Virus record (IMG/VR): IMGVR_UViG_3300035670_012704
Coordinates: 1-21,355 of that record
Length of the DNA: 21,355 bases
Direction: 5' to 3' (one strand)
Origin: a virus
The notes under the pieces were generated by a model. It did no database searches, had not been told where the DNA came from, and saw nothing but the letters and a program-made list of their open reading frames with translations. Both the position numbers and the translations under genes were made by a program. Of this stretch, positions 280 through 15,362 are shown one piece after another; position 1 is the stretch's first letter; every line of letters starts with the position of its first letter.

Positions 280-294
280 TTTTTATTATTTATT
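280..294 (-). promoter_or_regulatory. Candidate late promoter box (AATAAATAATAAAAA)
   Basis: The minus strand reads AATAAATAATAAAAA, close to the T4 late promoter core TATAAATA. The same 15-mer occurs upstream of the protease-scaffold gene (4242-4256), with the same 11-nt gap to the start codon. It overlaps the last codons and stop of thioredoxin. It could instead be an A-rich ribosome-loading leader, since the genes here lack Shine-Dalgarno sequences. Confidence 0.4.
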
Positions 295-564
295 CGTTAA
301 TTCTTTAATCTGTTGTAAATTTTTAGTGCCAAGTGCCTTATTAATTAAGTCTCCCTCTTCTAAATAGATTAAAGTAGGTAGCGATCTAATTGCATAATCT
401 TGAGCAACTTTAAAATTTGCTGGATCTTCAATATCAAGTCTAACGACTTTTACATCACTTATCTCAGCTTCATATAAATCTAACTGTCTAGATACTATTT
501 TACATGGATTACACCATGTAGCGTAAAAATCTAATAATACTTTTCCTTTGGTAATATCTTCCAT
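286..564 (-). CDS. Thioredoxin
   Basis: A 92-residue thioredoxin-fold protein. The redox motif WCNPC lies at residues 17-21, after the strand VLLDFYAT, and the cis-proline loop (SLPTLIYL, Pro63) that packs against the active site is present. A thioredoxin of about 105 residues is usual; this one is slightly short at the N-terminus but has the whole core from the first central strand onward. It would reduce protein disulfides in the cytoplasm, or supply electrons to a phage or host ribonucleotide reductase; nothing in the window identifies the partner. The active-site dipeptide is NP instead of the common GP, so redox potential may differ. It is separated from the capsid gene by a strong terminator and has its own TATAAATA box 13 nt before ATG 564, suggesting independent late expression. 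Confidence 0.9.
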   Translation of the reverse strand: MEDITKGKVLLDFYATWCNPCKIVSRQLDLYEAEISDVKVVRLDIEDPANFKVAQDYAIRSLPTLIYLEEGDLINKALGTKNLQQIKELTNK

Positions 565-634: not shown

Positions 635-2221
635 CTAGCTAAAGTTAGCTGGAGCAACACTACCAGTAAGAACACCGATATCACCAAGGATTTCCATGTT
701 AACATACTGTGTTTCAGGGTGCCATCCTGCTTCAGTAATCGCGTAACGAGATTTCATACCGATTTTTGGAGAGAATGTACCTTCTGAAATAGTCTGAAGT
801 GATTCAGCCATGATGTACGGCATGAATTTAACTCCTGGCTCTTCGTCAGCACCTTTACGTCCGATAGAAACGCGAGTATCTGACCAAGATAAGTTAGGGT
901 CTACATAAACTTGTACACCGTAAACTTTACCAGCTGGGTATAAGTTACCTGCAACTCCAGCCATATCAGTTGGAACTTGTGCAATTGAGTAACCAGCAAC
1001 ATCAGCCAAAGCAGATGCGATACGACCGTTAGTTACCAAGAATGTACCAGCACCAAAACGACCACGGTGGTAGATAAGGTTAGCAAGTTCAAGAACTTTA
1101 GTAACGAAACGACGTTGCATAGTAGATACGTTTTCAAAACCACCAAGACCAGCGCTTAGATCTAATGCAGTAATACCTGTACCTTCTACTAGGTCGATTT
1201 GTGTGTTGTGAGTATCAGCCAATTGGAAGATGTTATCAACCAAACGCTTGTTGATAGATTGTGCAAGGTCATTAACTGCTACATTCTCCAACATAGAAAC
1301 TACGTCATAGTTCCAAACTCGGTTCAAGTCTTGGATTTGCTCAACAGTTGCAGAGATAGAAACTTGATCAGTTTCAGCTTCTACAAACTTAGTGAACATT
1401 TTAAGACCCATTTGACGGTATTTAGAAACTTCACCAGCTTCACGTTTCATAGATCCTGGTACTTGACCAGTAGCTGGCATATAAGAACCAGACCATCCAG
1501 TAGCTGCTGTCGAATCGTAATCAGCATCTGAAGTAGACGTAAATCCAGAGATGTGGTTTTCCAATGCAGAAACAAGTTCAACTGCTGCGCTTGCGTTGTC
1601 ATTGAATGTAGTTTTCAAGTTAGTTGAAAGTACACCAGAAGACTCAGCGATAATTTTGATGATTGGGCTACCGTCTACGCGGCTGTATCCTACGAATGCG
1701 TAAGAACCAGAACCATCGAAAGAACCTGGAGAAGCTTGAGTTGTAGCTGCGATAGTTGCTTTTTCAGCATCAGATACACCTACAAGTTTAACCATATAAG
1801 GTTGGAAGCCTGCACCAGTTTCAGTAGTGTTACCGCCAGTGTAAAGATAATCCAAATAAGGTAAGAAACCTACAGGAGAATCCATTGGGATAACTGGTAC
1901 CAAATCAAAACCGATAGTTTTAGCAGCAACTTGAATTGCAACTGGTAACAAAGATGGGAATTTATCGCCAGATCCATTTACTCCACGAGTAGCTGGATTT
2001 GCTTGTCCCATACCAACCAAAGAAGTTGGTTGTTGGAAGAATGTTCCTGGAGTAGATTCGAAAAGCGCAGAACCAGTGTTATCGAAGATCGCGTGGTTGT
2101 GAGCATACTCAGCTAACCAAGGAGTTTTCGCAACATCAGCACCATAACCTTCCAAAACTGGTGTCCATGTGTTTGTCAAGCTAGAATCGCTTGAACGTCT
2201 AAAAATTTTAGTACGTGCCAT
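635..2221 (-). CDS. Major capsid protein (T4 gp23-like)
   Basis: A 528-residue protein matching the T4 gp23 family in length (gp23 is 521) and layout: a charged N-terminal segment to be removed, then the HK97-fold region. The segment around residues 104-125 (FDLVPVIPMDSPVGFL) corresponds to the gp23 stretch with the conserved PMxSPxG motif, and the gene lies directly downstream of the protease/scaffold, as 23 follows 21-22 in T4. Two T4-type prohead protease sites, (L/I)-x-E, occur near the N-terminus: LAE (36-38) and LFE (53-55). Either could mark the mature end, with LFE the better match in position to the T4 site. No Shine-Dalgarno is present; the leader is A-rich (ATTTTAAACAATG). A strong terminator follows, isolating this highly expressed gene from thioredoxin. 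Confidence 0.93.
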   Translation of the reverse strand: MARTKIFRRSSDSSLTNTWTPVLEGYGADVAKTPWLAEYAHNHAIFDNTGSALFESTPGTFFQQPTSLVGMGQANPATRGVNGSGDKFPSLLPVAIQVAAKTIGFDLVPVIPMDSPVGFLPYLDYLYTGGNTTETGAGFQPYMVKLVGVSDAEKATIAATTQASPGSFDGSGSYAFVGYSRVDGSPIIKIIAESSGVLSTNLKTTFNDNASAAVELVSALENHISGFTSTSDADYDSTAATGWSGSYMPATGQVPGSMKREAGEVSKYRQMGLKMFTKFVEAETDQVSISATVEQIQDLNRVWNYDVVSMLENVAVNDLAQSINKRLVDNIFQLADTHNTQIDLVEGTGITALDLSAGLGGFENVSTMQRRFVTKVLELANLIYHRGRFGAGTFLVTNGRIASALADVAGYSIAQVPTDMAGVAGNLYPAGKVYGVQVYVDPNLSWSDTRVSIGRKGADEEPGVKFMPYIMAESLQTISEGTFSPKIGMKSRYAITEAGWHPETQYVNMEILGDIGVLTGSVAPANFS

Positions 2222-2250: not shown

Positions 2251-3489
2251 TTATCGACGATTTTGAGCATTGATCTTCATCATCTCTAAGTAGCTTTGAG
2301 AGTAACCTCTCGTCATCTCAACTACCTGATTAACAGGAATCATACCTTCTGTACTTTGGCTTTCGTTGAGTTGTTGTAATTTTTGATTATTTTTTTGAAT
2401 CTCAATAGATTCTTGAATACGATTCATATCTGCTTCTGCCCAGAACGTTTTAGCTTGATATGGTGTACGAACATCATACAATTGAGCTTTAGCGTGGATT
2501 CTATTTTTAGCAGATTCATCCATTTGCTCCCAAGTTGCTTTATGCTCAGTTGGCATAAACTTCAAGTAAGCAGGGATATTTTGGTCTTTATGAGAAACTA
2601 CTGCTTCCATAATAGAAAGTAGATCAACTTCATTGAACCATACTGCTCCGTTTACTGCTTCAACAATTGCTTGTTTAGTAGTAGCTTCAAGGGAGAAGAA
2701 TTTTTGTTTGTTTTCTTCAGACATAACAGTTAAGAAAGGATATTTGCTTTCCAATACTGCTTTAGAAGACTTATCCGTAACTTCAGTAATTACTTGGTCT
2801 ACTTTTGAGATTAAAGCATCAACTGAAGTAGATTCGTTCATTTTACTTACACCATTCAATAGGTTACGGGAACCTGCAGCTCCTGTTCCATTAAGTGATT
2901 CAGCAATATATTCAGAGTAACCAATATTTTGTCCCAATTTCTCAGCAAGATATTGTGCATACTCACGGTTTAAGTTAACGTTTTCTGAAAGATATTCAGC
3001 AAACTCGATACCGCGATTAGCTCCTTCAGCCACATACTCAGTGTATTGGATATTTTTATCCAAGTTCTCAGCAAGATAGTTTTGGTACTTAATAGAGTTA
3101 TTCAAGGTTTCTTTAAGATACTCAGAATAGTTAATAGTTTGGTTAACTTTCTCAGCAACGTAATCTTGGTAACCAACTGATTGATTTAATTTTTCACCTA
3201 AATAAGTAGAATACTCAATTGCATTGTTAGTAGTTTCAGCTACATGTTCAGTATATTTAACTGACTCATTTAATTTATGAGATAAGTAGTCTGCATAGTT
3301 AATTACTCCCTCTAATGATTCAGCTAAGTAGTTTACAAAACCAGTTAACTTAGACTCATGAGATTCAGTATTTTGTGAAGACTCTAAAATTGCTTTTTGA
3401 GTATTAAGTTCTTTCTTAATACCTTCAAACTGCTGTTTCAATACTCCAGAGTACTTATCCATTTGTTCTCTTGTTACGAAATCGGACAT
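2251..3489 (-). CDS. Possible internally initiated scaffold protein within the protease fusion
   Basis: Codon 248 of the fusion is an ATG (3489) opening MSDFVTREQMDKYSG, a typical soluble N-terminus, right after a low-complexity linker. Its leader AACAAAAAAATAGCACAACA is A-rich like the leaders of the capsid and first sugar-operon genes. It would give a 412-residue scaffold without the protease, as lambda Nu3 is made within the C protease gene. There is no direct proof of internal initiation; the alternative is release of scaffold by self-cleavage. Confidence 0.45.
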   Translation of the reverse strand: MSDFVTREQMDKYSGVLKQQFEGIKKELNTQKAILESSQNTESHESKLTGFVNYLAESLEGVINYADYLSHKLNESVKYTEHVAETTNNAIEYSTYLGEKLNQSVGYQDYVAEKVNQTINYSEYLKETLNNSIKYQNYLAENLDKNIQYTEYVAEGANRGIEFAEYLSENVNLNREYAQYLAEKLGQNIGYSEYIAESLNGTGAAGSRNLLNGVSKMNESTSVDALISKVDQVITEVTDKSSKAVLESKYPFLTVMSEENKQKFFSLEATTKQAIVEAVNGAVWFNEVDLLSIMEAVVSHKDQNIPAYLKFMPTEHKATWEQMDESAKNRIHAKAQLYDVRTPYQAKTFWAEADMNRIQESIEIQKNNQKLQQLNESQSTEGMIPVNQVVEMTRGYSQSYLEMMKINAQNRR

Positions 3490-4230
3490 TGTTGTGCTAT
3501 TTTTTTGTTTTTGAGATGCTTCTTGGAAAGGAATTCCTGTAGCATTTTCTAATTTATTTATCTTGTAGACTTTATAATTATCTGCAAAATTTAAGCTTTC
3601 TGAAAGATCAACTAGGTTATTAGTTGAAACAATTGAATTTTCTTTTAGATGATTGTAACTTTCAGTAATCATTGAAAAGTCATTTTGAAGTGACTCAGCT
3701 ACTGATTGTTTTAATACTGCTTCTGTAAATCCAGGCTCTCCAACCAAGTCATAAGTAAAAATTCGTTGTAATTTTACAATTCCACTTTCATTTACTTGGC
3801 CAGCTGCTCTAGAAGAAATAGACAATTGAACTCCTCCATCGATAAGTGCTTTAGCAATTCGTCCGTTTGGAGTATTTTCTAAAATCTGAACTTTAATATT
3901 AACTCTGTCACCACCATCATAAGTAAGTCCTTTGATAATATGTGATGCATTTTTAAGAGAAACATCAAAATCATTTTTAGGATGATCTAATTCACCAACT
4001 AATTGATTTTTAGAGATTTTTTCTTGTAGATAAGTAAGATGAGGTAAATACTCATTCTTCTCATAAACTCGACGATTGTTATTCATTTGCCCAAATACTG
4101 CGCAAACTCCTTCCAATACAATTGCACCAGGCGTCGAATTTTGTACCTGTAGTTTATGTCCTACGTTTTCAACAATCAAGAGCACATCATTCTGATGTAC
4201 TGCTGAATTATTAAGACTTGAATTTGTCAA
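2251..4230 (-). CDS. Prohead protease fused to scaffold core (gp21-gp22-like)
   Basis: A 659-residue protein. Residues about 15-185 form a T4 gp21-type (S77 family) prohead serine protease: GELDHPKN gives the catalytic-type His83, SISSRAAG (137-144) the nucleophile-type serine, and FTYDLVGEPGF (158-168) the segment conserved near the domain end. Residues 250-659 are helical and highly charged, as expected of the gp22 scaffold, with eleven 14-residue repeats at 297-450. In T4 these are separate genes; here they are one frame. Start: no ATG is available before residue 48, which would cut the protease, so TTG 4230 is used; it lies at the same distance from an upstream AT-rich box as the ATG of the partial Dps-like gene does. 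An internal ATG (codon 248) with an A-rich leader could give scaffold alone. The product would shape the prohead, then cleave the capsid and scaffold proteins. Confidence 0.88.
   Translation of the reverse strand: MTNSSLNNSAVHQNDVLLIVENVGHKLQVQNSTPGAIVLEGVCAVFGQMNNNRRVYEKNEYLPHLTYLQEKISKNQLVGELDHPKNDFDVSLKNASHIIKGLTYDGGDRVNIKVQILENTPNGRIAKALIDGGVQLSISSRAAGQVNESGIVKLQRIFTYDLVGEPGFTEAVLKQSVAESLQNDFSMITESYNHLKENSIVSTNNLVDLSESLNFADNYKVYKINKLENATGIPFQEASQKQKNSTTMSDFVTREQMDKYSGVLKQQFEGIKKELNTQKAILESSQNTESHESKLTGFVNYLAESLEGVINYADYLSHKLNESVKYTEHVAETTNNAIEYSTYLGEKLNQSVGYQDYVAEKVNQTINYSEYLKETLNNSIKYQNYLAENLDKNIQYTEYVAEGANRGIEFAEYLSENVNLNREYAQYLAEKLGQNIGYSEYIAESLNGTGAAGSRNLLNGVSKMNESTSVDALISKVDQVITEVTDKSSKAVLESKYPFLTVMSEENKQKFFSLEATTKQAIVEAVNGAVWFNEVDLLSIMEAVVSHKDQNIPAYLKFMPTEHKATWEQMDESAKNRIHAKAQLYDVRTPYQAKTFWAEADMNRIQESIEIQKNNQKLQQLNESQSTEGMIPVNQVVEMTRGYSQSYLEMMKINAQNRR
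2881..3342 (-). repeat. Eleven in-frame 14-residue (42-bp) repeats in the scaffold
   Basis: Residues 297-450 of the fusion divide without gaps into eleven units of exactly 14 residues, pattern x-[YF]-x-x-[YH]-[LVI]-x-E-x-x-N-x-x-[IV]. Examples: EYSTYLGEKLNQSV, GYQDYVAEKVNQTI, NYSEYLKETLNNSI. Fourteen is two heptads, so a long continuous helix or coiled coil is expected. DNA copies have diverged while the protein pattern is kept, indicating selection on the protein. Confidence 0.9.
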
Positions 4231-4281: not shown

Positions 4282-5265
4282 TTATTTAACGAGCTTTAAT
4301 AAATCATTAAATTTTGCTAATTCTTCTTCACTTAAAAGACTAAAGTTAGGTGCAATTACTTCAAATTTAATTAAATAGTCTCCACGTTTACCGTTTTCAC
4401 CAAATATACCTTCTCCAGGTATATTCATCTCAATTTTACTTAGGTTTTTAACCTTTTTAAGATTTACTGAGTATTTTTTACCTACAATTGTCTCTATTTC
4501 TAATGGTTCTTCGCTCAATATAGCATCATAGAGTGAAATTTCAGCTCGGTGAATGATTTTATTCGCTTCTAGTTTAATCCTATCAGATTTGTTAAAAGTT
4601 ACATTAATATAGACATCGCCAGCTAACTGTGTCGACTCCCAATCTCCCCACATATTTATTCCATCCAATACATCTTCATGTCCAAGCCTAGATAATCTCA
4701 CTTTTGCCACTAATTTGTCTCCTTCTTCCTTAATATTTAAGAAAATAGACTTTAGATCTAGTTTAATAGAGACTTCTTTTTCTTCTTCAACCTTTTCGTA
4801 TTGTAATCGATCTGCAACCTTACCTAAGTAGTTTACTTTTTGTCGTATAAATGAAATTGTGATCTCAACCCCATGTATTGCATCAGTTAGGTCTACTTCT
4901 TTTTCTAAATTGATATTTAAGTGTTCAGTAATTGGTCCTTTTTGAGTAGTCTGTTTTCTTTTTTGACTTTGTCGACTTCGAAAGCCATCATCTCTAAAAG
5001 TATTTTTAATAAAGTCATCAAATCCAAAACCTCCACCTCTCTTTTGTCCATTTGCGAAAGGATTTTGTTTAAGATCGTAATCTGCCCGCTTTTTTGAGTC
5101 CCCTAAGATTTGATATGCTTCACTTATTTGTTTAAACTTCTCTTCAGCGGAACCATCTCCTCCATTTTTATCTGGGTGGTATTTTAAGGCAAGTTTTCGA
5201 TAAGCTTTTTTAATTTCAGCTTCACTTGCAGTCTTGTTAACCTCTAATATCGAATAATAGTCCAT
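4282..5265 (-). CDS. J-domain protein (DnaJ/Hsp40-like co-chaperone)
   Basis: A 327-residue protein. Residues 2-66 are a full J domain: helix [10 protein letters not shown], helix [12 protein letters not shown], the essential HPD at 30-32, and helix [20 protein letters not shown] glycine/phenylalanine-rich segment (70-90, [10 protein letters not shown]) follows, then a beta-rich C-terminal region whose residues 280-310 ([23 protein letters not shown]) match the end of the DnaJ substrate-binding domain. The CxxCxGxG zinc repeats are absent, so it is of the type II (CbpA/DnaJ-B) layout. Known J proteins stimulate Hsp70 ATPase and deliver clients; here the Hsp70 would be the host's. It is the first gene of the leftward capsid block, which suggests help in folding capsid or scaffold protein. 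Start ATG 5265 begins directly with the J domain. Confidence 0.9.
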
Positions 5266-5325
5266 GCCTAAAATTTTTTTAAACTTTTGATAAAAATCTT
5301 GTATAATAAAAAAAACAAAAGTTTT
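5266..5325. promoter_or_regulatory. Divergent intergenic region with inverted repeat and candidate promoter
   Basis: Sixty AT-rich bases separate the divergent J-domain gene and the sugar operon. AAACTTTTG (5281-5289) and CAAAAGTTT (5316-5324) are perfect 9-bp inverted arms with a 26-bp spacer. Between them lies TATAAT (5302-5307), a possible -10 element for the rightward operon, which would give a leader of about 12 nt. The nearest TTGATA is only 9 nt upstream, too close for a sigma70 -35. The right arm ends at the base before ATG 5326, so the dyad could act as an operator or as an RNA hairpin at the start codon. Confidence 0.4.
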
Positions 5326-5940
5326 ATGTCTTTACCCAAATCTCTTGAAGATTTTATGGGAATCCACAAAGGTGAAAAAATTATAGTTTGTGGTTGCGGA
5401 ACCTCTCTGCCAGATATTCTTCCATATAAAGATGACTTTATTACAATTGGTGTAAATGATGTTCCTGCGCTATTTGATCCTACTTATTTATTGGTTACCG
5501 ATCATCCAAATAGATTTTATGGAGCTCGCAGAGACATAGTACAAAACGCAAAATCACGTTTTCTTTTTACCTGCACAAGCGGTTGGAGACACCCAAGATT
5601 AGTTAAATTTAATCTAGGCACTAAGGAACTAAAGTCGCTAGATAGTCCTAGAGTAATTGACCATTTCTTAAATTCTCCATATGTTGCAGCCAATCTTGCC
5701 TATAAAATGGGAGCAAAACATATTGGAATACTTGGAGTTGACTTTACCGACGGTCACTTTTATAATCCACACGATGGGCCTCATCCGATTTCTCCACAGC
5801 CTCATCTAAATAGGGTAAATACTTCATATCAAATCTTATTAAGTGCACTAGCTGATCGTGGTGTTACCTTACATAATCTTAGCCAAATTAGTAGACTTAA
5901 CCTCCCTAAAATAACTATTGAAAAATTTAAAGAACTATGA
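5326..5940 (+). CDS. GT42/DUF115-like putative nonulosonic acid transferase
   Basis: A 204-residue protein. It opens with a Rossmann-like nucleotide-binding strand, [11 protein letters not shown] (18-28), followed by FITIGVND (38-45), then YLLVTDHP (54-61), [20 protein letters not shown] (121-140) and near the end [14 protein letters not shown] (178-191). This order of motifs resembles GT42 sialyltransferases of the CstII type (GNGPSL, then an Asn-containing RCN, then LGYKEIYLSGIDF, then CPNSLL) and the related DUF115/flagellin Maf proteins. By that analogy it would transfer a CMP-activated nonulosonic acid. The overlap (ATGA) with a CMP-nonulosonate synthetase gene fits that role. Start: an upstream TTG (5287) gives 13 extra lysine/asparagine-rich residues with no homology value, so ATG 5326 with its A-rich leader is preferred. 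It is the first gene of the operon. Confidence 0.6.
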
Positions 5941-6566
5941 AAATTATTATTCCAGCAAGATTTGGTTCAAAAGGATTTCCTTTAAAAAATCGTCGACTTT
6001 TCGATCACACTGCCTCAATTATTCCAAAAGAGTTAAAAAATTCAGTTTGGGTTACCACTGATGACGTAGAAATAGTTAAAATGGCTCGAGAATACAATTT
6101 CAATGTTATTCTTCGACCTGAACACCTTGCTGGAGATACCGCATCAACTAAAGAGACTTTAATCCATGCAATTAAATCTGCTGAAATTGAAAACGAAGAA
6201 CTTGTTTGCGTTCTCTACTTAACCTATCCTCAGCGGACTTGGGAAGAAGTTATAACGTCAAGAGAATGGTTTCTTCAAAATACTGGAGACACCATTATTT
6301 ACTCTATGCTTTGTAAACAAGAGGTAAGTTCTCATCCTTATCTTTGTATGCAAGAAGAAGGTAATTTTGGTTCTCAAATAGTTGAGCACGACCTTTACCG
6401 ACGCCAAGACTATCCTAAATGTTTTGAAATAAGTCACTATATTATCTTATTTAAGTCTGGAAATATAAATGCGTTAAATAACAATATGTATAATCGATAT
6501 ACTCTATTTTATCCGATCAATAATGTAGTTGATGTCGATTATGAAAATGACTTAACTAAATTATGA
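5937..6566 (+). CDS. NeuA-like CMP-nonulosonate cytidylyltransferase
   Basis: A 209-residue nucleotidyltransferase of the CMP-Neu5Ac/CMP-Kdo synthetase family. The N-terminal CTP-binding signature IIPARFGSKGFPLKN (4-18) is nearly canonical (IPARxGSKGxPxKN). It is followed by VWVTTDDVEIVKMA (37-50), RPEHLAGDTAST (60-71) and LYLTYPQRT (93-101), where the family has LxPTSPLR or LxxTYPxRT. RRQDYPKCFEISHYIILF (155-172) corresponds to the RQxxPxxxxxNGxxYI segment, and DVDYENDL (199-206) to the metal-binding DIDxxxDL end. The reaction is CTP + nonulosonic acid giving CMP-sugar + PPi. Length is close to the 220-230 usual in bacteria. It overlaps its neighbours by ATGA on both sides, so it is translationally coupled. 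Together with the NeuB-like gene downstream it points to sialic-acid-like sugar use; which sugar cannot be told from sequence alone. Confidence 0.85.
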   Translation: MKIIIPARFGSKGFPLKNRRLFDHTASIIPKELKNSVWVTTDDVEIVKMAREYNFNVILRPEHLAGDTASTKETLIHAIKSAEIENEELVCVLYLTYPQRTWEEVITSREWFLQNTGDTIIYSMLCKQEVSSHPYLCMQEEGNFGSQIVEHDLYRRQDYPKCFEISHYIILFKSGNINALNNNMYNRYTLFYPINNVVDVDYENDLTKL

Positions 6567-8161
6567 TAGATATTGCTACTGAGCTTTTTGAAAAATCAAT
6601 AAAAGACTGCCAAAATACGATTTATCACTTTATTAAAAATAATAAGTGGTTTGTTGGCAAAATATACTTATTAACTACTTCTGATAGTTATCCTAGTACT
6701 TCTTCAATTGATTCTATTCGCAAAATTTATAGCAATATTGAGGTAATTAATACATCCTCTGATACTTCCTTCATTAATCTATTTCCTAACCAAGAAATAA
6801 ATCGTACTAATATTTGGAAATACTGTCTATCGATTGATACTTACCGACTTTTATACTTGTCAAACTATGTAGTAGTCTCAAATGATTTATCAACAATTAT
6901 TACTGAAACGAGTAGCTTTATTTCTGATAATTGTGATTTTATCTATTTTAATGGAAATAGAGATAATTTATCTAGCAGTTCAGCTGATTACGATATTATT
7001 GATTTTATTTTAAGACAGCCAACTTCAATTTCATTAGATAATTTGGTAGTATATAGCTCAACTATTCCAGATAAAATTTATGCGAGCTCTCTCAACATAT
7101 TAAAAAATTCAAGTGTTATTATTTTTAATACTTTAACTTCTAATTTTAGTTCATCTACTCGAGTTAACTCAGTTAGGCTACATAAAGTTAGAGAAACTCT
7201 TGCCTATTTGACCTCACCTTCTGCTAAGATTATCAAAAAACCAATATATACTCCAATACCTAAATCTGGAGTAGTTAACAATATAACTAAGGATGCAACA
7301 GTACCGACTCCAAAACGTGAGTCTAGATATATTTTAGATCCTGCAAAATTAAATGAAAGCCGTGCTGATCTTTTAAAAGTTACTCGCGCTAGGCATGTAG
7401 ATACTCTGCCATCTGGTAATTATCAGGTTGCGTGTATCATTGCATTTAAAGATAGACATACTATTGTTAAATTAAATATTGAGTGCCTTAATAATCAAAC
7501 TCTTAAGCCTGCAATAATTTTAGTTGCCTCAAATTTAGAGGATGCTGAATTTGCAATCAATTTAAGTAACGAACATGATAATGTATTTGTTACACTATTT
7601 AATAATTATCCGATCGGTGCGAAATGGCAAGCTGGTGTAGATTATGCACGTAAATTAAATACAAAGGGTGTTATTATTTTAGGTTCTGATGACATACTCT
7701 CTCTGGATTACATTAGAGCATGTTTTGATAAAATTGATAGTGGTCGTGGTTCTTCTGGCAATGGTGTTGATCTAGTTGGAAGTCGTTCTTGGTACATCTA
7801 TGATACTTCACATAATTTATACTATCTTCAATATACTAAACAGGTTCCAGTATTTTTAGGCGGTGGCCGCATGTTTTCTCGTCATTTCCTAGACTCAGTT
7901 GATTGGGTGATATTTGATAGATCTAAGCCAGTGCATCTGGATACGTATGGATATACTGCAGTCCAATCATTTAGTAATAGTCTGTATGAATTGGAAAAAA
8001 ATCACTCAATCGTAAGTATTAAAGGAAGTTGGGATATGATTAATTCAACTCAGCAGATACTTGCAGCAAATCGTCGAATTACTTCAAAAAATGTTACTCA
8101 AATAAAAGAAACTTTTTTTAATGATTTAAAAATACTTAACATTGATGGCTACCTTATTTGA
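6563..8161 (+). CDS. Two-part glycosyltransferase-like protein with C-terminal GT2-type domain
   Basis: A 532-residue protein in two halves. The C-terminal part (from about residue 287) looks like a GT-A family 2 glycosyltransferase: VACIIAFKDR (289-298) as the first strand, a region of the type PIGAKWQAGVDYAR, and VIILGSDDILS (370-380) with the DD pair that binds the nucleotide-sugar metal. GGGRMFSR (433-440) fits the acceptor-side loop. The N-terminal part (about 30-220) starts KIYLLTTSD and contains YCLSIDTYRLLYLSNYVVVSND, which loosely recalls GT8/GT32-type transferases (an R-x-x-x-L segment before the donor site), but no clear DxD is seen and that half may be inactive or of another family. 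A proline/lysine-rich linker (225-255) joins them. Overlaps with both neighbours place it inside the operon; donor and acceptor are unknown. Confidence 0.7.
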   Translation: MIDIATELFEKSIKDCQNTIYHFIKNNKWFVGKIYLLTTSDSYPSTSSIDSIRKIYSNIEVINTSSDTSFINLFPNQEINRTNIWKYCLSIDTYRLLYLSNYVVVSNDLSTIITETSSFISDNCDFIYFNGNRDNLSSSSADYDIIDFILRQPTSISLDNLVVYSSTIPDKIYASSLNILKNSSVIIFNTLTSNFSSSTRVNSVRLHKVRETLAYLTSPSAKIIKKPIYTPIPKSGVVNNITKDATVPTPKRESRYILDPAKLNESRADLLKVTRARHVDTLPSGNYQVACIIAFKDRHTIVKLNIECLNNQTLKPAIILVASNLEDAEFAINLSNEHDNVFVTLFNNYPIGAKWQAGVDYARKLNTKGVIILGSDDILSLDYIRACFDKIDSGRGSSGNGVDLVGSRSWYIYDTSHNLYYLQYTKQVPVFLGGGRMFSRHFLDSVDWVIFDRSKPVHLDTYGYTAVQSFSNSLYELEKNHSIVSIKGSWDMINSTQQILAANRRITSKNVTQIKETFFNDLKILNIDGYLI

Positions 8162-9020
8162 TATTATTACTTATGCTCAATCCAAGTTTTCAATAAAAGC
8201 TATTGTTAATCATGAAGAAACGCAAGTTATCACTGAGCCTTCTCAATTGATTGAAAATAATGAGGAAGATTTTCTACTTTTTTGGGTAAACCTTAAAAAT
8301 ATTGATAAAGCCGCTAGTCTAAATAATGGTATACTGATTTCGCCAATCGAGCTACCTGAAAATTTTAATTTTAAAGGAACTACTATTGTTTGCGACGATC
8401 CTAGATTACTATTTAGTTTAGTAGTTAAACGATTTTTTAGTAGACCTACTTCATTTCCAAGTGTTATTCCAAATTCTTCAAAAATTAACAAAGGGACCAT
8501 TATTGAAGATGGCGTAATTATTGGCAATCGAGTAACGATTGGTTATAATAACGTTATCCACTCTGGAACTATTATTGAAGACGATGTTATTATAGGATCA
8601 AATAATACAATTGGCGGAATAGGTTTCGGTTATACCAAGAGTTCTACTGGAGATTATGAATATATTCCACACATTGGTGGAGTTCTAATTGAATCAAATG
8701 TTGAAATAGGAAATAATACATGTATCGATCGTGCAGTATTGGGAAATACTCACATTAAAAGAAATTGTAAAATTGATAACCTTGTCCATATTGCACATGG
8801 TGTAACTATTGGTGAAAATAGCTTAATTATTGCAAATTCTATGATAGCCGGTAGTGTCGACATTGGCTCAAATACATGGATTGCTCCATCTACCTCAATT
8901 ATAAATGGTGGAAAGATTGGCAATGATTCAATGACAGGACTCGGCAGTGTTGTTATATCAAACATTGGTGATCGAGAACTTCATGTCGGCGTACCTGCAA
9001 AAAAAATAAAGACTATCTAA
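8145..9020 (+). CDS. LpxD-like left-handed beta-helix sugar N-acyltransferase
   Basis: A 291-residue protein. Residues 110-290 are hexapeptide repeats ([IV]GxxxxI type) forming a left-handed beta helix, for example GTIIEDGVIIG and GVTIGENSLIIA. The stretch IGGIGFGY (156-163), IPHIGGV (174-180), CIDRAVLGNT (193-202) and KIDNLVHIAHGVTIG (209-223) follows the LpxD signature closely, and His218 in IAHG is at the place of the LpxD catalytic histidine. The N-terminal 100 residues have an LpxD-like small domain (NGILISPIELP, then VCDDPRLLFS). E. coli LpxD is 341 residues and ends with an ACP-binding helix; here the protein stops after the family-like VGVPAKKIK. It may acylate or acetylate an amino sugar made by the neighbouring deacetylase rather than lipid A. 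ATG 8145 is preferred to TTG 8142; it overlaps the preceding gene by 17 nt. Confidence 0.82.
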   Translation: MATLFDIITYAQSKFSIKAIVNHEETQVITEPSQLIENNEEDFLLFWVNLKNIDKAASLNNGILISPIELPENFNFKGTTIVCDDPRLLFSLVVKRFFSRPTSFPSVIPNSSKINKGTIIEDGVIIGNRVTIGYNNVIHSGTIIEDDVIIGSNNTIGGIGFGYTKSSTGDYEYIPHIGGVLIESNVEIGNNTCIDRAVLGNTHIKRNCKIDNLVHIAHGVTIGENSLIIANSMIAGSVDIGSNTWIAPSTSIINGGKIGNDSMTGLGSVVISNIGDRELHVGVPAKKIKTI

Positions 9021-10771
9021 TGTGCGGGATTTCTGGCATTTTAAATAGATCACAGATAATTGCTGATCGTGATTCTCAAATTGAAATCATGCTAAATACT
9101 CAGCATATGAGAGGTCCTGATTCGAGTCAAATAGTTAGTGAAACTAATTTTACTTTAGCCCATAATCGACTCTCTATAATCGACCTTAATTCTACTGGAA
9201 ATCAACCTATGGAATCTGGTGATTGGCTTATTGTATTTAATGGTGAGATCTATAATTATCAAGAGATAAAAGCTCAATTAGAATTAGCTGGAGTTCAATT
9301 TAATGGATCATCAGATACTGAAGTACTCTTAAAATCAATTGAAAGGGATGGGATTGACCAAACTCTAGCTAAAATAAATGGTATTTTTGCTTTTTGTATC
9401 TATAATAAAATATCTGATGAGTTCTATTTAGTTAGGGATCGTCTTGGAGAAAAACCATTATTTTACTATTTTGATTCTGCCGGTTCTCTCTATTTTGCTT
9501 CAAATCCTTCATCCATTGTAAATGCTCTGCCTAATGTTGAGTGGATCCTAGATAGAGAAGCCCTTTGGGAATATTTTGCGATGGGAGGAATCTTTACTGA
9601 AAAAACTCTTTTTTCAAATATTAAGAGACTTGATTCAGCTTCAATACTGAGTGGTAATAATGCTGAATTTACTATTTCAAGATATTGGACTCCTCAGTAC
9701 CAACCAAATATTACTGATTCTACAATCGATACGTCAATTAAAGAATCAATTATGAGTCGAACTATTGCTGACGTTCCAGTTGTTTTATTCTTAAGCGGAG
9801 GCGTTGATTCATCAGCAGTTGCTGCTGTGATTAAAGACATTAATGCGGTTCACTTAATTTCGCCAGAAGTTGAATATGCTCAGCAAGTAGCTAATCAGTT
9901 TAATATAGATTTTCAGATAGTTACTCCAGAATCCTTTGATATTTCAAAAGTACTAGAAGAGTATGCTACTTTTTCCGGCGAGCCAACTATGGCTGGTTTT
10001 ATTCCATATATTACTAGTAAATACGTTAGTTCTGATTATAAAGTAGCAATTAGCGCAAATGGCGCTGACGAACTATTTTTTGGATATACTCGAATACCTA
10101 CTCCAAATCTTCGTAGCGGGTTTTTTGAAAAGAGACTACTTAATGAAAAGATCAATATTAATGGGCTTTCCTTTTCTCCAAGTGAACAGATTTTACATAT
10201 TTTTAGACACCCTTCTAATTTTAGTATACATATATTAGAGTCAACCAAAACTTATGCTGACCTGACTAATCTAGTAGAGACCATACCTAAGCTTTCTAAT
10301 GATTTCCCAAGCAGTTCTCAATTTAGATGGTTAGAATTGATGACTTATGTAAAGGGTGATCTAAATAATACTCTAGACTTTTCGAGTATGGCTAATTCTT
10401 TAGAAGTTAGAGCACCATTTCTAGACTATAAATTAATTCAAAACGCACTAAGCATTGATGAAACTCGACACATTAGTCAAAAACTTGGTCGCAAACACTT
10501 TTTAAAAAATATATTATTGCGAAATAATATTAATCAAAATGTATGGAATAGAGATAAACTTGGATTTAGCCTAGTTGATAGTTATTTAGAAAGTATTATT
10601 GATTTACGAAACACTGCTGTTTTAGAATTAAGCAAAGAAGGCATCTTAGATATTCATTGTACTGAAGGTCACTCTTCCCGTGACCTTGAATATTTAAAAA
10701 GTGCTGCCTTAGGGTTCTATCATTGGAAAAAAGTCTGGGTAGATACTGGTAAAGTAAAAATAGAAAAATAA
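9020..10771 (+). CDS. AsnB-like glutamine-dependent amidotransferase (asparagine synthase family)
   Basis: A 583-residue two-domain enzyme. The N-terminal class II glutaminase starts MCGISGIL, with nucleophile Cys2, Arg50 (AHNRLS), NGEIYN (74-79) and Asp99 (GSSDTEVLL). The C-terminal ATP pyrophosphatase domain has the P-loop SGGVDSS (259-265) and the pair SMANSLEVRAPFLDY and GRKHFLK seen in asparagine synthetases. The segment that is SGEGSDE in E. coli AsnB reads SANGADE (345-351) here, so the first acidic residue is replaced by Asn. O-antigen and capsule clusters use such homologues to amidate uronic acids, and with a UGDH-like gene close by, amidation of a sugar acid is an attractive role; plain asparagine synthesis is the alternative. 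The start overlaps the upstream stop (TAATG). Confidence 0.88.
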   Translation: MCGISGILNRSQIIADRDSQIEIMLNTQHMRGPDSSQIVSETNFTLAHNRLSIIDLNSTGNQPMESGDWLIVFNGEIYNYQEIKAQLELAGVQFNGSSDTEVLLKSIERDGIDQTLAKINGIFAFCIYNKISDEFYLVRDRLGEKPLFYYFDSAGSLYFASNPSSIVNALPNVEWILDREALWEYFAMGGIFTEKTLFSNIKRLDSASILSGNNAEFTISRYWTPQYQPNITDSTIDTSIKESIMSRTIADVPVVLFLSGGVDSSAVAAVIKDINAVHLISPEVEYAQQVANQFNIDFQIVTPESFDISKVLEEYATFSGEPTMAGFIPYITSKYVSSDYKVAISANGADELFFGYTRIPTPNLRSGFFEKRLLNEKININGLSFSPSEQILHIFRHPSNFSIHILESTKTYADLTNLVETIPKLSNDFPSSSQFRWLELMTYVKGDLNNTLDFSSMANSLEVRAPFLDYKLIQNALSIDETRHISQKLGRKHFLKNILLRNNINQNVWNRDKLGFSLVDSYLESIIDLRNTAVLELSKEGILDIHCTEGHSSRDLEYLKSAALGFYHWKKVWVDTGKVKIEK

Positions 10772-10772
10772 G

Positions 10773-11396
10773 ATGGATATTTTAATTCTTTCTCCACATA
10801 CTGATGACGCTGAATTAGGCTGCGGTGGAACTATCTCTAGGCTAACTAGAGAGGGTCATACTGTTTGGGTCGCAGTTTTTTCGTTATGTAATGACTCTCT
10901 ACCGACTGGCTTTCCTCCAGGTACATTGAAGTATGAATGTACTAAGTCATTAACTTCACTCGGCGTACTTAAGGAAAACATCTTTTTCTATGATTATCAA
11001 GTTAGAGTATTCAATTATTCTAGACAAGCTATTCTTGACGATCTAATCAAACTAAAAAAGAAGATAAATCCGGGGCAAGTCTTTATTCCATCAGTTGATG
11101 ATTATCACCAAGACCATAAAACTATTGCTGATGAAGGAGTTAGATGTTTTAAAAATAATTGTTCAATTCTATCATATGAACTTATTTGGAACAATACTGG
11201 ATTTAAAAATCAAATGTATTATGATTTAACTGAAGATGATATTAAAAATAAAATAACTGCATTGGCTAATTATGAAACGCAAAAACATAGAATATACTTT
11301 CAAAACAACTTTATCGAATCTCTTGCAACTGTGAGAGGAGCTCAAAATGGAATTCGATATGCTGAAGTTTTTGAAGTAATTCGATATAAAATATAA
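10773..11396 (+). CDS. PIG-L/LmbE-family N-acetylsugar deacetylase
   Basis: A 207-residue protein beginning MDILILSPHTDDAELGCGG, the zinc-binding PHxDDxxLGxGG signature of the PIG-L/LmbE family (His9, Asp11, Asp12). The second motif, YHQDHKT (111-117), supplies the HxDH-type histidines (His112, His115). VDD at 108-110 and the Rossmann-like strands fit the family length of 200-250. Known members remove the N-acetyl group from GlcNAc-type sugars (GlcNAc-PI, mycothiol and bacillithiol precursors, teicoplanin). In this operon it could free an amine for re-acylation by the LpxD-like enzyme two genes upstream. It starts 1 nt after the amidotransferase stop, so it is part of the same transcript. The substrate is not shown by the sequence. 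Confidence 0.85.
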   Translation: MDILILSPHTDDAELGCGGTISRLTREGHTVWVAVFSLCNDSLPTGFPPGTLKYECTKSLTSLGVLKENIFFYDYQVRVFNYSRQAILDDLIKLKKKINPGQVFIPSVDDYHQDHKTIADEGVRCFKNNCSILSYELIWNNTGFKNQMYYDLTEDDIKNKITALANYETQKHRIYFQNNFIESLATVRGAQNGIRYAEVFEVIRYKI

Positions 11397-11403
11397 AAGA
11401 AAA

Positions 11404-12006
11404 ATGGGACAAGAATTAAGTAAACACTGGTATGATGAAGTATTTGATCAGGGCGGAAGCGGAGGTATGTATTTTTTAAATTATCGTGAAACACCATGGT
11501 ATCCAGTATGGACCAGAATTATTGAAATATTAAAAGAAAACAATTCAACTAAGGTACTAGATATCGGCTGTGGTCCTGGTCAATTTGCTCACTGTATGCT
11601 TGATGTAATGTCAAGTATTGAATATACTGGTCTAGACTTTAGCTCTTCGGCAATTAATTCAGCCAAAAATATAGGTTTACTTGCTACTTTTATTGAAGCC
11701 GACGCTTTAACATTCAACTATTCTAATATTGAATATGATGTAGTTATCTCTACTGAATTTTTAGAGCATGTACATGGCGATAAAGAAATATTAAGTCAAA
11801 TTGCGTCAGGCACCTTAATTATAGCTACTCTACCTAATATGGACTCGGCTGGACATGTTAGATTTTTGTCAAAAGATTATAATGAAGCTATTTCTGAAAT
11901 AATTAATCGATATTCCGATATTTGCAATATTTTACATATTGAGTATTTTCCATATGAAAAAAATCCAAATAATGCAGATTTCTTAATTCAAATGGTTCGT
12001 AAATGA
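11404..12006 (+). CDS. Class I SAM-dependent methyltransferase
   Basis: A 200-residue protein with a seven-strand methyltransferase core. Motif I is VLDIGCGPGQ (51-60), the acidic second strand follows at YTGLDFSS, and DALTFNYSNIEYDVVISTEFLEHV carries motif II and the EFLEH motif typical of small-molecule and sugar methyltransferases. The N-terminus (SKHWYDEVFDQGGSGGMY) resembles sugar methyltransferases of the type found in O-antigen clusters. The likely role is O- or N-methylation of a sugar on the glycan, in the cytoplasm. It lies 7 nt after the deacetylase gene with an A-rich leader (AAAAGAAAAATG), and its stop overlaps the next start (ATGA). Confidence 0.85.
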   Translation: MGQELSKHWYDEVFDQGGSGGMYFLNYRETPWYPVWTRIIEILKENNSTKVLDIGCGPGQFAHCMLDVMSSIEYTGLDFSSSAINSAKNIGLLATFIEADALTFNYSNIEYDVVISTEFLEHVHGDKEILSQIASGTLIIATLPNMDSAGHVRFLSKDYNEAISEIINRYSDICNILHIEYFPYEKNPNNADFLIQMVRK

Positions 12007-12692
12007 AAGTGTTAGTAATTATCCCAATGTATAATGCTAGTCGATTTATTAGAGAGTGTTTAACTTCTATCCTTTCTCAAGATGTTGATTTACAGGTTAT
12101 TGTAATCGATGATTCTTCTACTGATAACTGTGCCTCAATAGTTAGTGAATTTCCAGAAGTGAAATTACTCACTAACTCTAAAAATATGGGAACCTACTAT
12201 TCAATTAATTTAGGTTTATTAGAAGCGTCAACTGACACATCATGGACTCATTACCTAATTCATGGAGCAGACGATGTTTCTAATCCTAATCGATTTAAAA
12301 AACAATTATCCTTATTTAAGTCAAGTACTCTAGCCGTTGGTTGTCGATTTGAAAGGGTTCACTATTTGACTGGCGCAAAAAAGATTAATAATCCTTGGGT
12401 AAATGAGTCAGTTTTATTAATGTCTCGTCAAATTTTTGAAACACTTGGATATTATGATACTAATCGTGCCGGCTGTGATACTGAATATCGAAATAGACTA
12501 TCCTTGGCTTTTCCAAATAGAATATCTCAAATTGATGAGGTCTTAATTAAGTCTTACTTGCATGATGATAATTTAACTAAAAAGATACCTATTGGTGGGT
12601 CTGAAAGGCGAGCCTATGTTGCCTCTTTTACCCGTATCCATGAGAAAATGAACAAATCAAAAGAGTTTTTCAAAAATTTTAAAAAAATATAA
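12003..12692 (+). CDS. Family 2 glycosyltransferase
   Basis: A 229-residue GT-A glycosyltransferase. The canonical GT2 start VLVIIPMYNASRFIRECLTS is followed by VIVIDDSSTDN (34-44) for nucleotide binding, LLTNSKNMGTYYSINLGL, and HYLIHGADDVSNPNRF with the metal-binding ADD. RAGCDTEYRNRL (about residue 155-166) resembles the ED-type acceptor/catalytic loop. No membrane segment is present, so it probably adds a sugar in the cytoplasm to a soluble or peripheral acceptor. It overlaps the methyltransferase by ATGA and is separated from the next gene by 4 nt. Donor and acceptor cannot be predicted. Confidence 0.88.
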   Translation: MKVLVIIPMYNASRFIRECLTSILSQDVDLQVIVIDDSSTDNCASIVSEFPEVKLLTNSKNMGTYYSINLGLLEASTDTSWTHYLIHGADDVSNPNRFKKQLSLFKSSTLAVGCRFERVHYLTGAKKINNPWVNESVLLMSRQIFETLGYYDTNRAGCDTEYRNRLSLAFPNRISQIDEVLIKSYLHDDNLTKKIPIGGSERRAYVASFTRIHEKMNKSKEFFKNFKKI

Positions 12693-12696
12693 TACG

Positions 12697-13515
12697 ATGA
12701 ATATTTCAGTTATTGGCCTGGGTTTTGTTGGCTCAGCAATGTTTAATAGTTTTAGGCAGAGGGGAGTACCTAACCTTTCCGGTTACGATAAATTTAAAAA
12801 TATTGGCAGTTTGGAAGAGTGTCTATCTGCTGATTTAATGTTTCTTGCCTTGCCGACTCCGTATCGAGAGAGTAGTGCAGAATACGACAAATCTGCTATT
12901 ATAGAGACACTTGAGCACCTTTCTCAAAACAACTTTCAAGGATTAGTTATTCTAAAAAGTACAGTTGAGCCAGAAACCACTATTTCTCTTGTTGAAAAGT
13001 TCCCTACCTTATCAATAATGCATAATCCTGAATTTTTAACAGAAAGAACTGCACTAGAGGATTTTAATAATCAATCACATATTGTTCTTGGTGTAAATAA
13101 CTCATGTTCTCCAGAAAAACGAATGAATATTCTTGAATTCTATTCAAAATTTTATCCTCATGCAAAAATATCAATGTGTACCTCTACTGAAAGTGAAAGT
13201 ATGAAAATTTTTGCAAATTCATTCTATTCAGTAAAAGTTCAATTTTTTAATGAGCTCTATTTTCTTTGTCAATCAATGAACTGTGATTTTGAAGTAGTTA
13301 AGGAACTTATGTTAGAAAATGGCTGGATTAATCCAATGCATACCCAAGTTCCAGGACCAGATGGTCTCTTTAGTTATGGAGGAAATTGTTTTCCGAAAGA
13401 TACTAATGCTCTCTTAAAGTACATGAAAAAGTATAACACTCCTAGTCGAGTACTTGAAGGAACTATTATTGAACGTGATGAGATACGTCCAGATAAAACT
13501 AATATTATTGATTAA
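12697..13515 (+). CDS. Short UDP-glucose/GDP-mannose 6-dehydrogenase-like protein
   Basis: A 272-residue protein with the first two domains of the nucleotide-sugar 6-dehydrogenase family. The NAD-binding fold shows GLGFVG (7-12); ALPTP (51-55) and KSTVEPETT (87-95) match the family's second half of that domain; NPEFLTERTAL (110-120) is the near-invariant NPEFLxEG motif. The catalytic lysine is in ESMKIFAN (Lys170), and the catalytic cysteine in YGGNCFPKDT (Cys231). Family members are about 390-450 residues and end with a third domain that helps bind the nucleotide; it is absent here. It may therefore oxidise an unusual sugar nucleotide to the uronic acid, or be impaired. A uronic acid product would be a natural substrate for the AsnB-like enzyme. 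The stop and next start overlap by one base (TAATG). Confidence 0.85.
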   Translation: MNISVIGLGFVGSAMFNSFRQRGVPNLSGYDKFKNIGSLEECLSADLMFLALPTPYRESSAEYDKSAIIETLEHLSQNNFQGLVILKSTVEPETTISLVEKFPTLSIMHNPEFLTERTALEDFNNQSHIVLGVNNSCSPEKRMNILEFYSKFYPHAKISMCTSTESESMKIFANSFYSVKVQFFNELYFLCQSMNCDFEVVKELMLENGWINPMHTQVPGPDGLFSYGGNCFPKDTNALLKYMKKYNTPSRVLEGTIIERDEIRPDKTNIID

Positions 13516-14342
13516 TGAAATTAGGTGTAAGTTATATTCTATTCGATGGCGTTGAACTTTTAGAGAGTTCAATTCGTCAAATAAGGGAACATGTCGATCA
13601 TATTACAGTAATTCACCAAAAGACTTCGTGGTTTGGTAATAGTGCATCATCGACGATTTTACCTGAACTTGCCAGGCTAGTTAACCTAAAATTAGTCGAT
13701 CAAATTATTGAATTTAAAAACTTTACTCCTAAATACTCTAAGACTCGAAATGACATTTTAGCAGTTAAAGATTTTGAAAGGACAAAGCGACAAGTCGGCT
13801 TAGATAATGCATTAGCTCATGGGTGTACTCATTATCTCTGCATGGATATTGATGAATTTTATAAGACCTCTGAGTTTAAAGCGGCAAAAGATTTAATAAT
13901 TCAGGAGGGTTACACAGCAACTGCTGCATCATTTATTAATTATGTTAATGTTCCAACTATCCATAGAGGTTATGATCCAAATAGGGTACCGTTTATCTGT
14001 AAAATAGAGGAAGGCTCCAAGATGACCAAATTCTTTTTCGTAAGATGCGACCCGACTAGAGGTATTTTAAATGGACTAACTAAAACTATTGACTTTGATC
14101 CTAATATAATTACTATGCACCATATGGAAACTGTTAGGAAAGATCTTACCTTAAAATATCAATCGACAACTCGAGGTATTTTTGATCGAGATCGTACACC
14201 AGAATTAGTTGAGCGAATCAAGAGAGTTTCTAAAAATACTCAAGTTTTTGATTTCAACAAAATTATTTTTCCAGGAGTAACTGAAAGTCGATTAACACAT
14301 TGCGAAAATATATTTAATATCCCTTATGAAAGCTGGAAATAA
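13515..14342 (+). CDS. Putative glycosyltransferase (GT-A fold, DxD type)
   Basis: A 275-residue protein of glycosyltransferase type. It begins with a short strand (GVSYILFDGVELLESSIRQI) followed by VDHITVIHQKTSWFG, an arrangement seen in GT-A proteins related to GT2/GT92. A DxD metal site is clear in HYLCMDIDEFYK (106-117, Asp111 and Asp113). Later, MHHMETVRKD (201-210) has the histidine expected to complete the metal site. RNDILAVKDFERTKRQVGLDNAL resembles the R...K..A...A helix that leads into the DxD strand. It is probably cytoplasmic, with no transmembrane segments. It overlaps the NeuB-like gene by 17 nt. The specific sugar is unknown, and a precise family could not be named. Confidence 0.72.
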   Translation: MKLGVSYILFDGVELLESSIRQIREHVDHITVIHQKTSWFGNSASSTILPELARLVNLKLVDQIIEFKNFTPKYSKTRNDILAVKDFERTKRQVGLDNALAHGCTHYLCMDIDEFYKTSEFKAAKDLIIQEGYTATAASFINYVNVPTIHRGYDPNRVPFICKIEEGSKMTKFFFVRCDPTRGILNGLTKTIDFDPNIITMHHMETVRKDLTLKYQSTTRGIFDRDRTPELVERIKRVSKNTQVFDFNKIIFPGVTESRLTHCENIFNIPYESWK

Positions 14343-15222
14343 AACCTTAATTATTGCCGAGATCGGAATCAACTACGCTTTTGGTACAAGTCAATCTGAC
14401 TTTATGGATAATATTAAGAAGCTGATTGATGTTGCCGTTGCTTCTGGTTGTGACTATGTAAAATTTCAAAAGCGAAACCCGGAAGACTGTATTCCGAAAG
14501 CAGAATGGAATAAAGCTAAGCAGGTTCCTTGGAGAAAGGAAGAGACTACTTATCTTCAATACAAAAAAGATATTGAATTATGGGATCGCGAATTTGATCA
14601 AATTGACGAATACTGTCGAGAAAAAGGTATCTTATGGTTTGCATCAGTTTGGGATAAGACTTCTTGTGACTTTATGCGACAATACCATACTAAACTTCCT
14701 AATGGGAAAATAGGAGTAATGGTAAAAATTCCATCAGCTTTAATCAATGATTTAGATTTAGTACTCTATGCAAAAGAGAGCTCAGATTTTTTACTTATCT
14801 CAACCGGTATGAGTACTCAACGAGAAATAGATGATGCAATTTCTGTTGGAGAACCTGATGTTGTTTTCCATACTAATTCAACATACCCTTCCCCAGTAGA
14901 AGAGTTAAATCTAGACTATATTACCTACCTTCAGCATATTCGTTCTGAGTTTGTAAAACCATATGCAGTTGGTTATTCTGGCCATGAATTTGGCCTCTCT
15001 ACAACAATTGCGGCTAATATGCTAGGTGCAGAATGGATAGAACGTCATCTAACCTTAGACCGAACCCTTTTCGGTAGCGACCAGATGGCCTCAGTTGAAC
15101 CTGCAGGCATGGTTAAATTGGTAAAAAGCATTAGAGATATCGAATGCGCCAGGGGTGGCTATGGCGCTCGTAAAGTATTAGCCTCAGAAAAAGCAAAACG
15201 TAAAACCTTAAGAGGAAAGTGA
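14326..15222 (+). CDS. NeuB-like nonulosonic acid synthase lacking the SAF domain
   Basis: A 298-residue TIM-barrel enzyme of the NeuB/SpsE family, which condenses phosphoenolpyruvate with a six-carbon amino sugar to make sialic, legionaminic or pseudaminic acid. Diagnostic segments are LIIAEIGINY (8-17), GCDYVKFQK (41-49), FASVWD (105-110), STGMSTQREIDDAI (159-172), FHTNSTYPSPVEELNL (181-196), VGYSGHEFG (215-223) and WIERHLTLDR (237-246) with His241. SVEPAGMVKLVKSIR matches the end of the barrel. The usual family length is about 340-360 because an antifreeze-like SAF domain follows; this protein stops at KRKTLRGK, where that domain would begin. The stop TGA overlaps a GTG start (GTGA) of a small ORF, and no SAF domain is encoded there. 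Start ATG 14326 overlaps the preceding gene. Confidence 0.9.
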   Translation: MKAGNKTLIIAEIGINYAFGTSQSDFMDNIKKLIDVAVASGCDYVKFQKRNPEDCIPKAEWNKAKQVPWRKEETTYLQYKKDIELWDREFDQIDEYCREKGILWFASVWDKTSCDFMRQYHTKLPNGKIGVMVKIPSALINDLDLVLYAKESSDFLLISTGMSTQREIDDAISVGEPDVVFHTNSTYPSPVEELNLDYITYLQHIRSEFVKPYAVGYSGHEFGLSTTIAANMLGAEWIERHLTLDRTLFGSDQMASVEPAGMVKLVKSIRDIECARGGYGARKVLASEKAKRKTLRGK

Positions 15223-15362
15223 AAGAGGAGTATTTAAGTTTATTGAAGTCTGGTATGTTTTGGGAATTTTACCCACAATTAACTGGCAATTGGGATAAGG
15301 ATAAAGGTGACTGGCGAAAAATTTGGTCCAACTTAAAAAAGACTAGAAATGTTAACGGGTAA
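15219..15362 (+). CDS. Small phage protein of 47 residues
   Basis: An open frame fills the apparent gap after the NeuB-like gene. GTG 15219 overlaps the NeuB stop (GTGA) and the frame ends at TAA 15360-15362, 14 nt inside the next gene. The product is strongly patterned: YLSLLKSGMFWEFYPQLTG, then NWDKDKGDWRKIWSN. The FWEFYPxLTGxWDKDxxxW pattern recalls small conserved phage proteins of unknown function. An internal ATG at 15255 would give 35 residues starting at MFWEF. Both ends overlap neighbours, consistent with a real coupled gene. Function unknown. Confidence 0.6.
   Translation: MKEEYLSLLKSGMFWEFYPQLTGNWDKDKGDWRKIWSNLKKTRNVNG

Follow-up and report, generated by a model that had tools for sequence, protein, structure and literature searches.

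A prohead protease-scaffold fusion with eleven tandem units that resemble the T4 capsid-targeting sequence

We analysed a 21,355-nucleotide stretch of viral DNA (the window; IMG/VR record IMGVR_UViG_3300035670_012704) and found one open reading frame that almost certainly encodes a prohead protease fused to a scaffold and contains a genuine, conserved array of eleven 14-residue units. The core of the unit has the motif of the T4 capsid-targeting sequence (CTS), by which that phage brings proteins into its head and which is then cleaved off, and in relatives the same motif is enriched at the N-termini of proteins other than the scaffold. As the best explanation, to which we assign a probability of roughly 0.6, each unit would serve as a core-assembly module that is also a cleavage site, and N-terminal tags on cargo proteins would imitate one such unit. 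The sequences thereby suggest one code for building the core, loading cargo into it and clearing it out.

A fused protease-scaffold gene and its repeat array

The 659-residue product matched Peptidase_S77 above cut-off (PF03420, 4.7e-10), the S80 family (PF20034, 2.9e-8) and the head maturation protease family PHROG 207 (1.5e-31). Its first ~190 residues matched T4 gp21 in PDB 5jbl both by profile (1.9e-6) and by predicted fold, with herpesvirus proteases next, and the candidate catalytic residues H82, H96, S138 and S139 were invariant across 26 sequences. The protease domain is followed by a linker, the array and a C-terminal helical domain (Table 1). Like T4 gp22, this is a core protein that lies beside a protease and a capsid gene and is mostly helical, the helix being a low-confidence prediction.

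Table 1. Positions of the head-gene features in the window.
Feature	Position	Strand	Basis or remark
Fused prohead protease-scaffold gene, 659 aa	2251..4230	-	TTG start as called, putative
Protease domain, S77 family, about aa 14-190	3661..4191	-	Profile and fold matches; invariant GELDHP and SSRAAG blocks
Conserved internal ATG (Met248), candidate start of a protease-free scaffold	3487..3489	-	Conservation in relatives
Eleven tandem 14-residue units, aa 297-450; core Y-x-E-[YF]-[LIV]-A-E, resembling the T4 CTS	2881..3342	-	
Scaffold C-terminal helical domain, about aa 466-659, kept in relatives	2254..2835	-	
Major capsid protein, gp23-like; N-terminal arm with candidate cleavage sites	635..2221	-	PF07068, 1.1e-34
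DnaJ-type co-chaperone, upstream of the scaffold in the window's clade	4282..5265	-	PF00226, 1.5e-29

The gene shares with the T4 prohead core (gp21 and gp22; PF03420, PDB 5jbl) a homologous protease, an adjacent gp23-type gene and a helical scaffold rich in L/I-x-E, but here protease and scaffold occupy one frame and the repeat is strictly 14 residues long, whereas the sites in T4 gp22 are irregular. A single 'prohead core scaffolding protein and protease' has already been annotated in bS21 phages of up to 331 kb, and the repeat is not described in the part of that report consulted (PMC9723584). Tenacibaculum phage PTm1 is likewise annotated with a joint prohead core scaffolding protein and protease; it matches the window's protease domain but, like the Lak phages that we also checked, lacks the 14-mer array. 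Neither these repeats nor tandem CTS units were described in the literature searched, which covered few subscription journals.

Several neighbouring genes were also recorded. The DnaJ-type gene lies upstream of the scaffold in L002-L025 wherever the sequence covers that stretch, and its product is 28-45% identical within the window's clade, far under the scaffold and capsid proteins. A thioredoxin-like protein (286-564, minus strand; PF00085, 4e-16) is encoded downstream of the capsid gene. Between the head and baseplate genes lies an 11 kb opposite-strand block of cell-surface sugar genes (5287-16505, plus strand) encoding a cytidylyltransferase, a NeuB-type sialic acid synthase, a UDP-glucose/GDP-mannose dehydrogenase, an asparagine synthase, a PIG-L deacetylase, a hexapeptide transferase and a methyltransferase.

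The first-pass annotation had described the repeat region as 154 residues dividing perfectly into 14-mers, and the translation bears this out, with eleven exact units and no remainder. Comparing array residues at fixed offsets, we obtained an identity of 0.32 at lag 14 against ~0.06-0.08 in the flanks, a value reached by none of 100,000 shuffles (shuffle maximum 0.20), and identities of 0.41 and 0.42 at lags 28 and 42. The plus-strand frame over the same positions is crowded with stops. The tetrapeptides of units 1 to 11 are YLAE, YLSH, HVAE, YLGE, YVAE, YLKE, YLAE, YVAE, YLSE, YLAE and YIAE, so that the earlier tally of [LI]-x-E in register in 7/11 units, V-x-E in 3/11 and one unit ending in H (unit 2) was correct; the accompanying statement that every unit reads Y-[LIV]-x-E holds for the position within the unit but fails at unit 3, where the aromatic is H and not Y. 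An off-register L-N-E in unit 2 (aa 320-322) is the eighth [LI]-x-E of the array, against 3.0 expected (shuffle p = 0.001). At the DNA level TRF found no tandem repeat at the array, and the mean nucleotide identity between the eleven units is 0.53. Because the repeat has decayed in DNA yet is intact in protein, the array must be old and maintained at the protein level. We discarded the Pfam and PHROG families that matched the repeat (PSCyt2, FERM_F2 and others) as weak hits to low-complexity helix, and a scan of plasmids for the array gave no match.

Scans of IMG/VR and phage records turned up ~200 full-length homologues, which group into 20 clusters at 70% identity and include those of huge phages of 462, 635, 636, 642 and 735 kb. 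All 20 members of the window's clade carry 11 units and other groups 9-17, apart from one degenerate group with 5 strong units. Spacing is nearly always 14 residues, and most departures from it are multiples of 7 (21, 28, 42). Among 246 units from cluster representatives, Y2 was present in 94%, Y5 in 95%, [LIV]6 in 100%, A7 in 89% and E8 in 95%. With the degenerate group excluded, E8 was kept in 232/241 units and was never replaced by D or Q, and other polar-face positions were variable; V stood at P3 in about 13-14% of units.

The huge phages LR745206, LR756500, LR756501, LR756502 and LR756504 (462-735 kb) encode a homologous protein with 5-14 units, most of them near-perfect YSEY[LI]AENLDKNI. 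They differ from the window's phage in their larger genomes, and two also bear units outside the scaffold: about four in 66 aa from an internal Met in LR745206, and three in a 210-aa protein of LR756501. The latter protein (L051, 3552-4184) combines its three CTS-like units with GxSG repeats and ends in DPYGEEDWSV, and the similar ending DPYGEENWSE of a protease paralog in that phage (L053) may point to a shared C-terminal signal. Paralogs of the protease domain occur elsewhere in three huge phages, LR756500, LR756501 and G014 (L052 at ~2754-3161, reverse; L053 at ~3142-3687, reverse; L054 at 3016-3669).

Likeness to the T4 targeting sequence and predicted cleavage

T4 IPII and IPIII begin with the 10-residue CTS, MKTYQEFIAE (NC_000866), and an A follows its P1 Glu. 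When we built a matrix from positions 2-8 of the scaffold repeats alone, the CTSs of IPII and IPIII ranked first and second of 50,759 T4 ORF heptapeptides. The full 14-position matrix did not single out the CTS in T4, so the likeness is limited to the 7-residue core. Repeat positions Y2, Y5, [LIV]6 and E8 correspond to CTS Y4, F7, I8 and E10, with the same aromatic spacing, hydrophobic P3 and Glu at P1. Suppressor mutagenesis in T4 assigned CTS residues 4 and 7 mainly to targeting and residues 8 and 10 to processing (PMC9026906), and both pairs of positions match. The T4 CTS is a single copy at the extreme N-terminus of its cargo, however, whereas the repeat forms eleven tandem copies inside a scaffold, and we suggest that the array works like a CTS and is not itself one. 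Reading the units purely as cleavage sites, as the first-pass annotation did, leaves the conserved tyrosines unexplained, and the likeness to the CTS would account for them.

Scanned with the repeat matrix, T4 gp22 contained no strong CTS-like unit (best score 2.6, against 10.7 for the internal proteins), so mimicry of the scaffold would not be the whole story in T4. The phiKZ-like giants (proteases SPN3US gp245 and phiKZ gp175) also cut after Glu and have N-terminal propeptides that have been likened to the CTS, but these propeptides are much longer and a gp22-like scaffold is unconfirmed (PMC5694885). A 54-aa T4 ORF (NC_000866, 18966-19130, minus strand) starts MKTFKEFIKED and is also CTS-like, and the neighbouring ORF at 17935-18963 contains YREYIFE.

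The T4 protease gp21 recognises L/I-x-E (PMC9026906), and T4 gp22 is cut into small peptides at such sites. We counted 16 [LI]-x-E motifs in T4 gp22 against 5.8 expected, with gp21 and gp68 enriched too and no enrichment in gp17, gp18, gp19 or gp20; the window's 659-residue protein has 20 against 8.6 expected. In the N-terminal arm of the major capsid protein, 110 of the 121 distinct arms share an [LIM]-x-E at a fixed site, where the other 11 have I-x-D; arms of the window's clade have I-x-D there and [ILV]-x-E a few residues on. An alternative capsid motif, W[LM][AS]E, was dropped as a conserved cut site, one clade having WLSK/WLTK, and conservation is better at the [LIM]-x-E further along. 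The sites of the array and of the capsid arms fit a gp21-like specificity, and cutting at several of the repeat sites is very probable.

The earlier proposal that the scaffold is a helix chopped into ~14-residue peptides is supported in that the protein is a prohead scaffold, the array is predicted to be helical (at low confidence) and its conserved sites fit cleavage. The peptide length is less secure: cuts at L/I-x-E alone would give array fragments of 18, 24, 28, 14, 28, 14 and 14 aa, and mostly 14-mers would follow only with cutting at V-x-E, which falls outside the T4 L/I consensus. Across the 13 distinct arrays in the window's clade, unit 2 never has the Glu and units 5 and 10 sometimes lack it, so not every unit need be cut.

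Cleavage could also explain the shared motif by itself: the motif would be no more than what the prohead protease recognises, the repeats would be evenly spaced cut sites for removing the scaffold, and resemblance to the CTS would stem from a common protease and not from a common docking surface. The T4 gp23 cut site also reads F-x-x-F-L-T-E, so that aromatics may be part of recognition, and both the L/I-x-E motif of gp21 (PMC9026906) and the [LIM]-x-E retained in the capsid arms of this group agree with such an account. In T4, however, the aromatics matter for targeting and not for processing (PMC9026906), most gp22 sites lack them, and the Glu-less unit 2 still has both Y2 and Y5. We therefore regard cleavage alone as unlikely, if the most credible of the alternatives.

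N-terminal tags and a proposed core-loading mechanism

Because a repeat that acts as a CTS predicts single copies on cargo, we sought tags on other proteins, counting [YFW]xx[YF][LIVM]xE in the first 20 residues and elsewhere with the scaffold excluded. With the crude ORF calling on which these counts rest (longest ATG ORF), enrichment at the N-terminus was significant in three of the four relatives tested: G005, a 176 kb contig of the window's clade (10 N-terminal vs 8 elsewhere, p 2.6e-7), G018 (25 vs 41, p 2.8e-11) and LR745206 (27 vs 50, p 2.3e-9); in G014 it was weak and borderline (p 0.05). Neither T4 (p 0.2) nor the array-less PTm1 showed significant enrichment. Variants of the tag with either aromatic removed, with E changed to D or with the motif reversed gave no comparable N-terminal enrichment, and an E-to-K variant was mildly enriched in LR745206 (p 7.5e-4).

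Once the tag is removed, the four genomes' 70 tagged ORFs fall into 55 unrelated families, on which ground we rejected paralogy as the source of the tags, and the tag was kept in 12 of the 16 tagged LR745206 proteins that have a G018 match. Its commonest form is (I/L)-K-K-[YF]-x-[QED]-F-[IL]-x-E-S. Candidates with family matches include an RNA ligase, a protein matching 2'-5' RNA ligase/Acb1, an exonuclease and a SMODS-associated NUDIX protein. Searching the 21 kb of the window, we found no tagged genes. A 491-aa protein of LR745206 (L294, 3271-4746, minus strand) has YTEYLAE at position 474, near its C-terminus, perhaps a C-terminal version of the tag.

A purely structural account would make the repeat an amphipathic 14-residue helix (four turns of 3.5) for bundling, with helix-friendly Leu and Glu and with cutting incidental. 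AlphaFold2 draws aa 290-435 as a single helix, at low confidence (pLDDT ~50), and the hydrophobic positions 2, 5, 6, 10 and 14 form one broad face of it. E8 is nevertheless far stricter than the other polar-face positions, and the presence of the same motif at protein N-termini, where all four key positions are needed, is left unexplained. Identity at lag 7 is 0.06, which is background, so by sequence identity a plain heptad coiled coil is not supported. Structure alone thus seems to us improbable, more so than cleavage alone.

Our preferred reading, in which one unit serves assembly, targeting and cleavage, can be put as a sequence of steps. The gene product would form a T4-like prohead core, in which a scaffold fused to a gp21-type protease has a long helix of 11 tandem CTS-like units at its centre. 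In each unit the aromatics Y2 and Y5 would hold the protein in the core, scaffold chains packing through their aromatic faces, and the [LIV]-x-E at positions 6-8 would be cut by the prohead protease. Proteins with one N-terminal motif would dock in the scaffold lattice as surrogate units and so be carried into the head. Once the shell is complete, the protease would cut behind the Glu both in most units and in the tags, dismantling the core and freeing the cargo in one step. From the sequences we infer both the cutting and the docking by mimicry, and packaging of the tagged proteins into heads would follow the same route. In our judgement the odds are about even, or slightly better, that array and N-terminal tags form a single element serving both core assembly and cargo loading. 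More tentative, at somewhat under even odds, is the wider proposal that the CTS mimics the scaffold repeat, that throughout this widespread lineage of large to huge phages tandem CTS units make up the core lattice, that dozens of unrelated proteins enter by means of the tag and that a single proteolytic event both breaks down the core and releases the cargo.

Protein placement in the T4-type prohead core has been called 'mysterious' (PMC9958956), and scaffold repeats that double as cargo tags would offer a simple, testable answer. If true, the motif would also be a sequence signature predicting which proteins of the largest known phages may travel inside the head and be delivered together with the DNA; the tagged RNA ligase, 2'-5' RNA ligase/Acb1, exonuclease and SMODS-associated NUDIX proteins would fit delivered counter-defence enzymes.

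Copy number and a candidate nested scaffold gene

The suggestion of the first-pass annotation that copy number might set head length, by which the array would act as a ruler, is unsupported and very improbable: clades do differ by whole units, and a 735 kb genome has 14 units, genomes of 634-642 kb have 11-12 and the 462 kb genome has 5 strong (about 10 weak), but this trend rests on five complete genomes (5-14 units), too few and too related, the 11 units found throughout the window's clade equal or fall one below those of the 634-642 kb phages, one cluster (L041) spans 11-16 units at 70% identity, and contig sizes are lower bounds on genome size.

The fusion may also contain a second, nested gene. 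A Met shortly before [FY]V[TN] is present in 20/20 cluster representatives (16 found by pattern, 4 by eye), and in those 16 the leader before it is 46-71% A, against 37% in the window's gene. Within the window's clade, synonymous conservation just upstream of Met248 is 0.79-0.88 compared with a mean of 0.59. T4 needs far more scaffold than protease (~580 gp22 vs ~55 gp21), and in lambda the scaffold Nu3 is supplied without the protease from an in-frame internal start (the nested C/Nu3 genes). The conserved Met248 suggests a comparable separate synthesis of protease-free scaffold.
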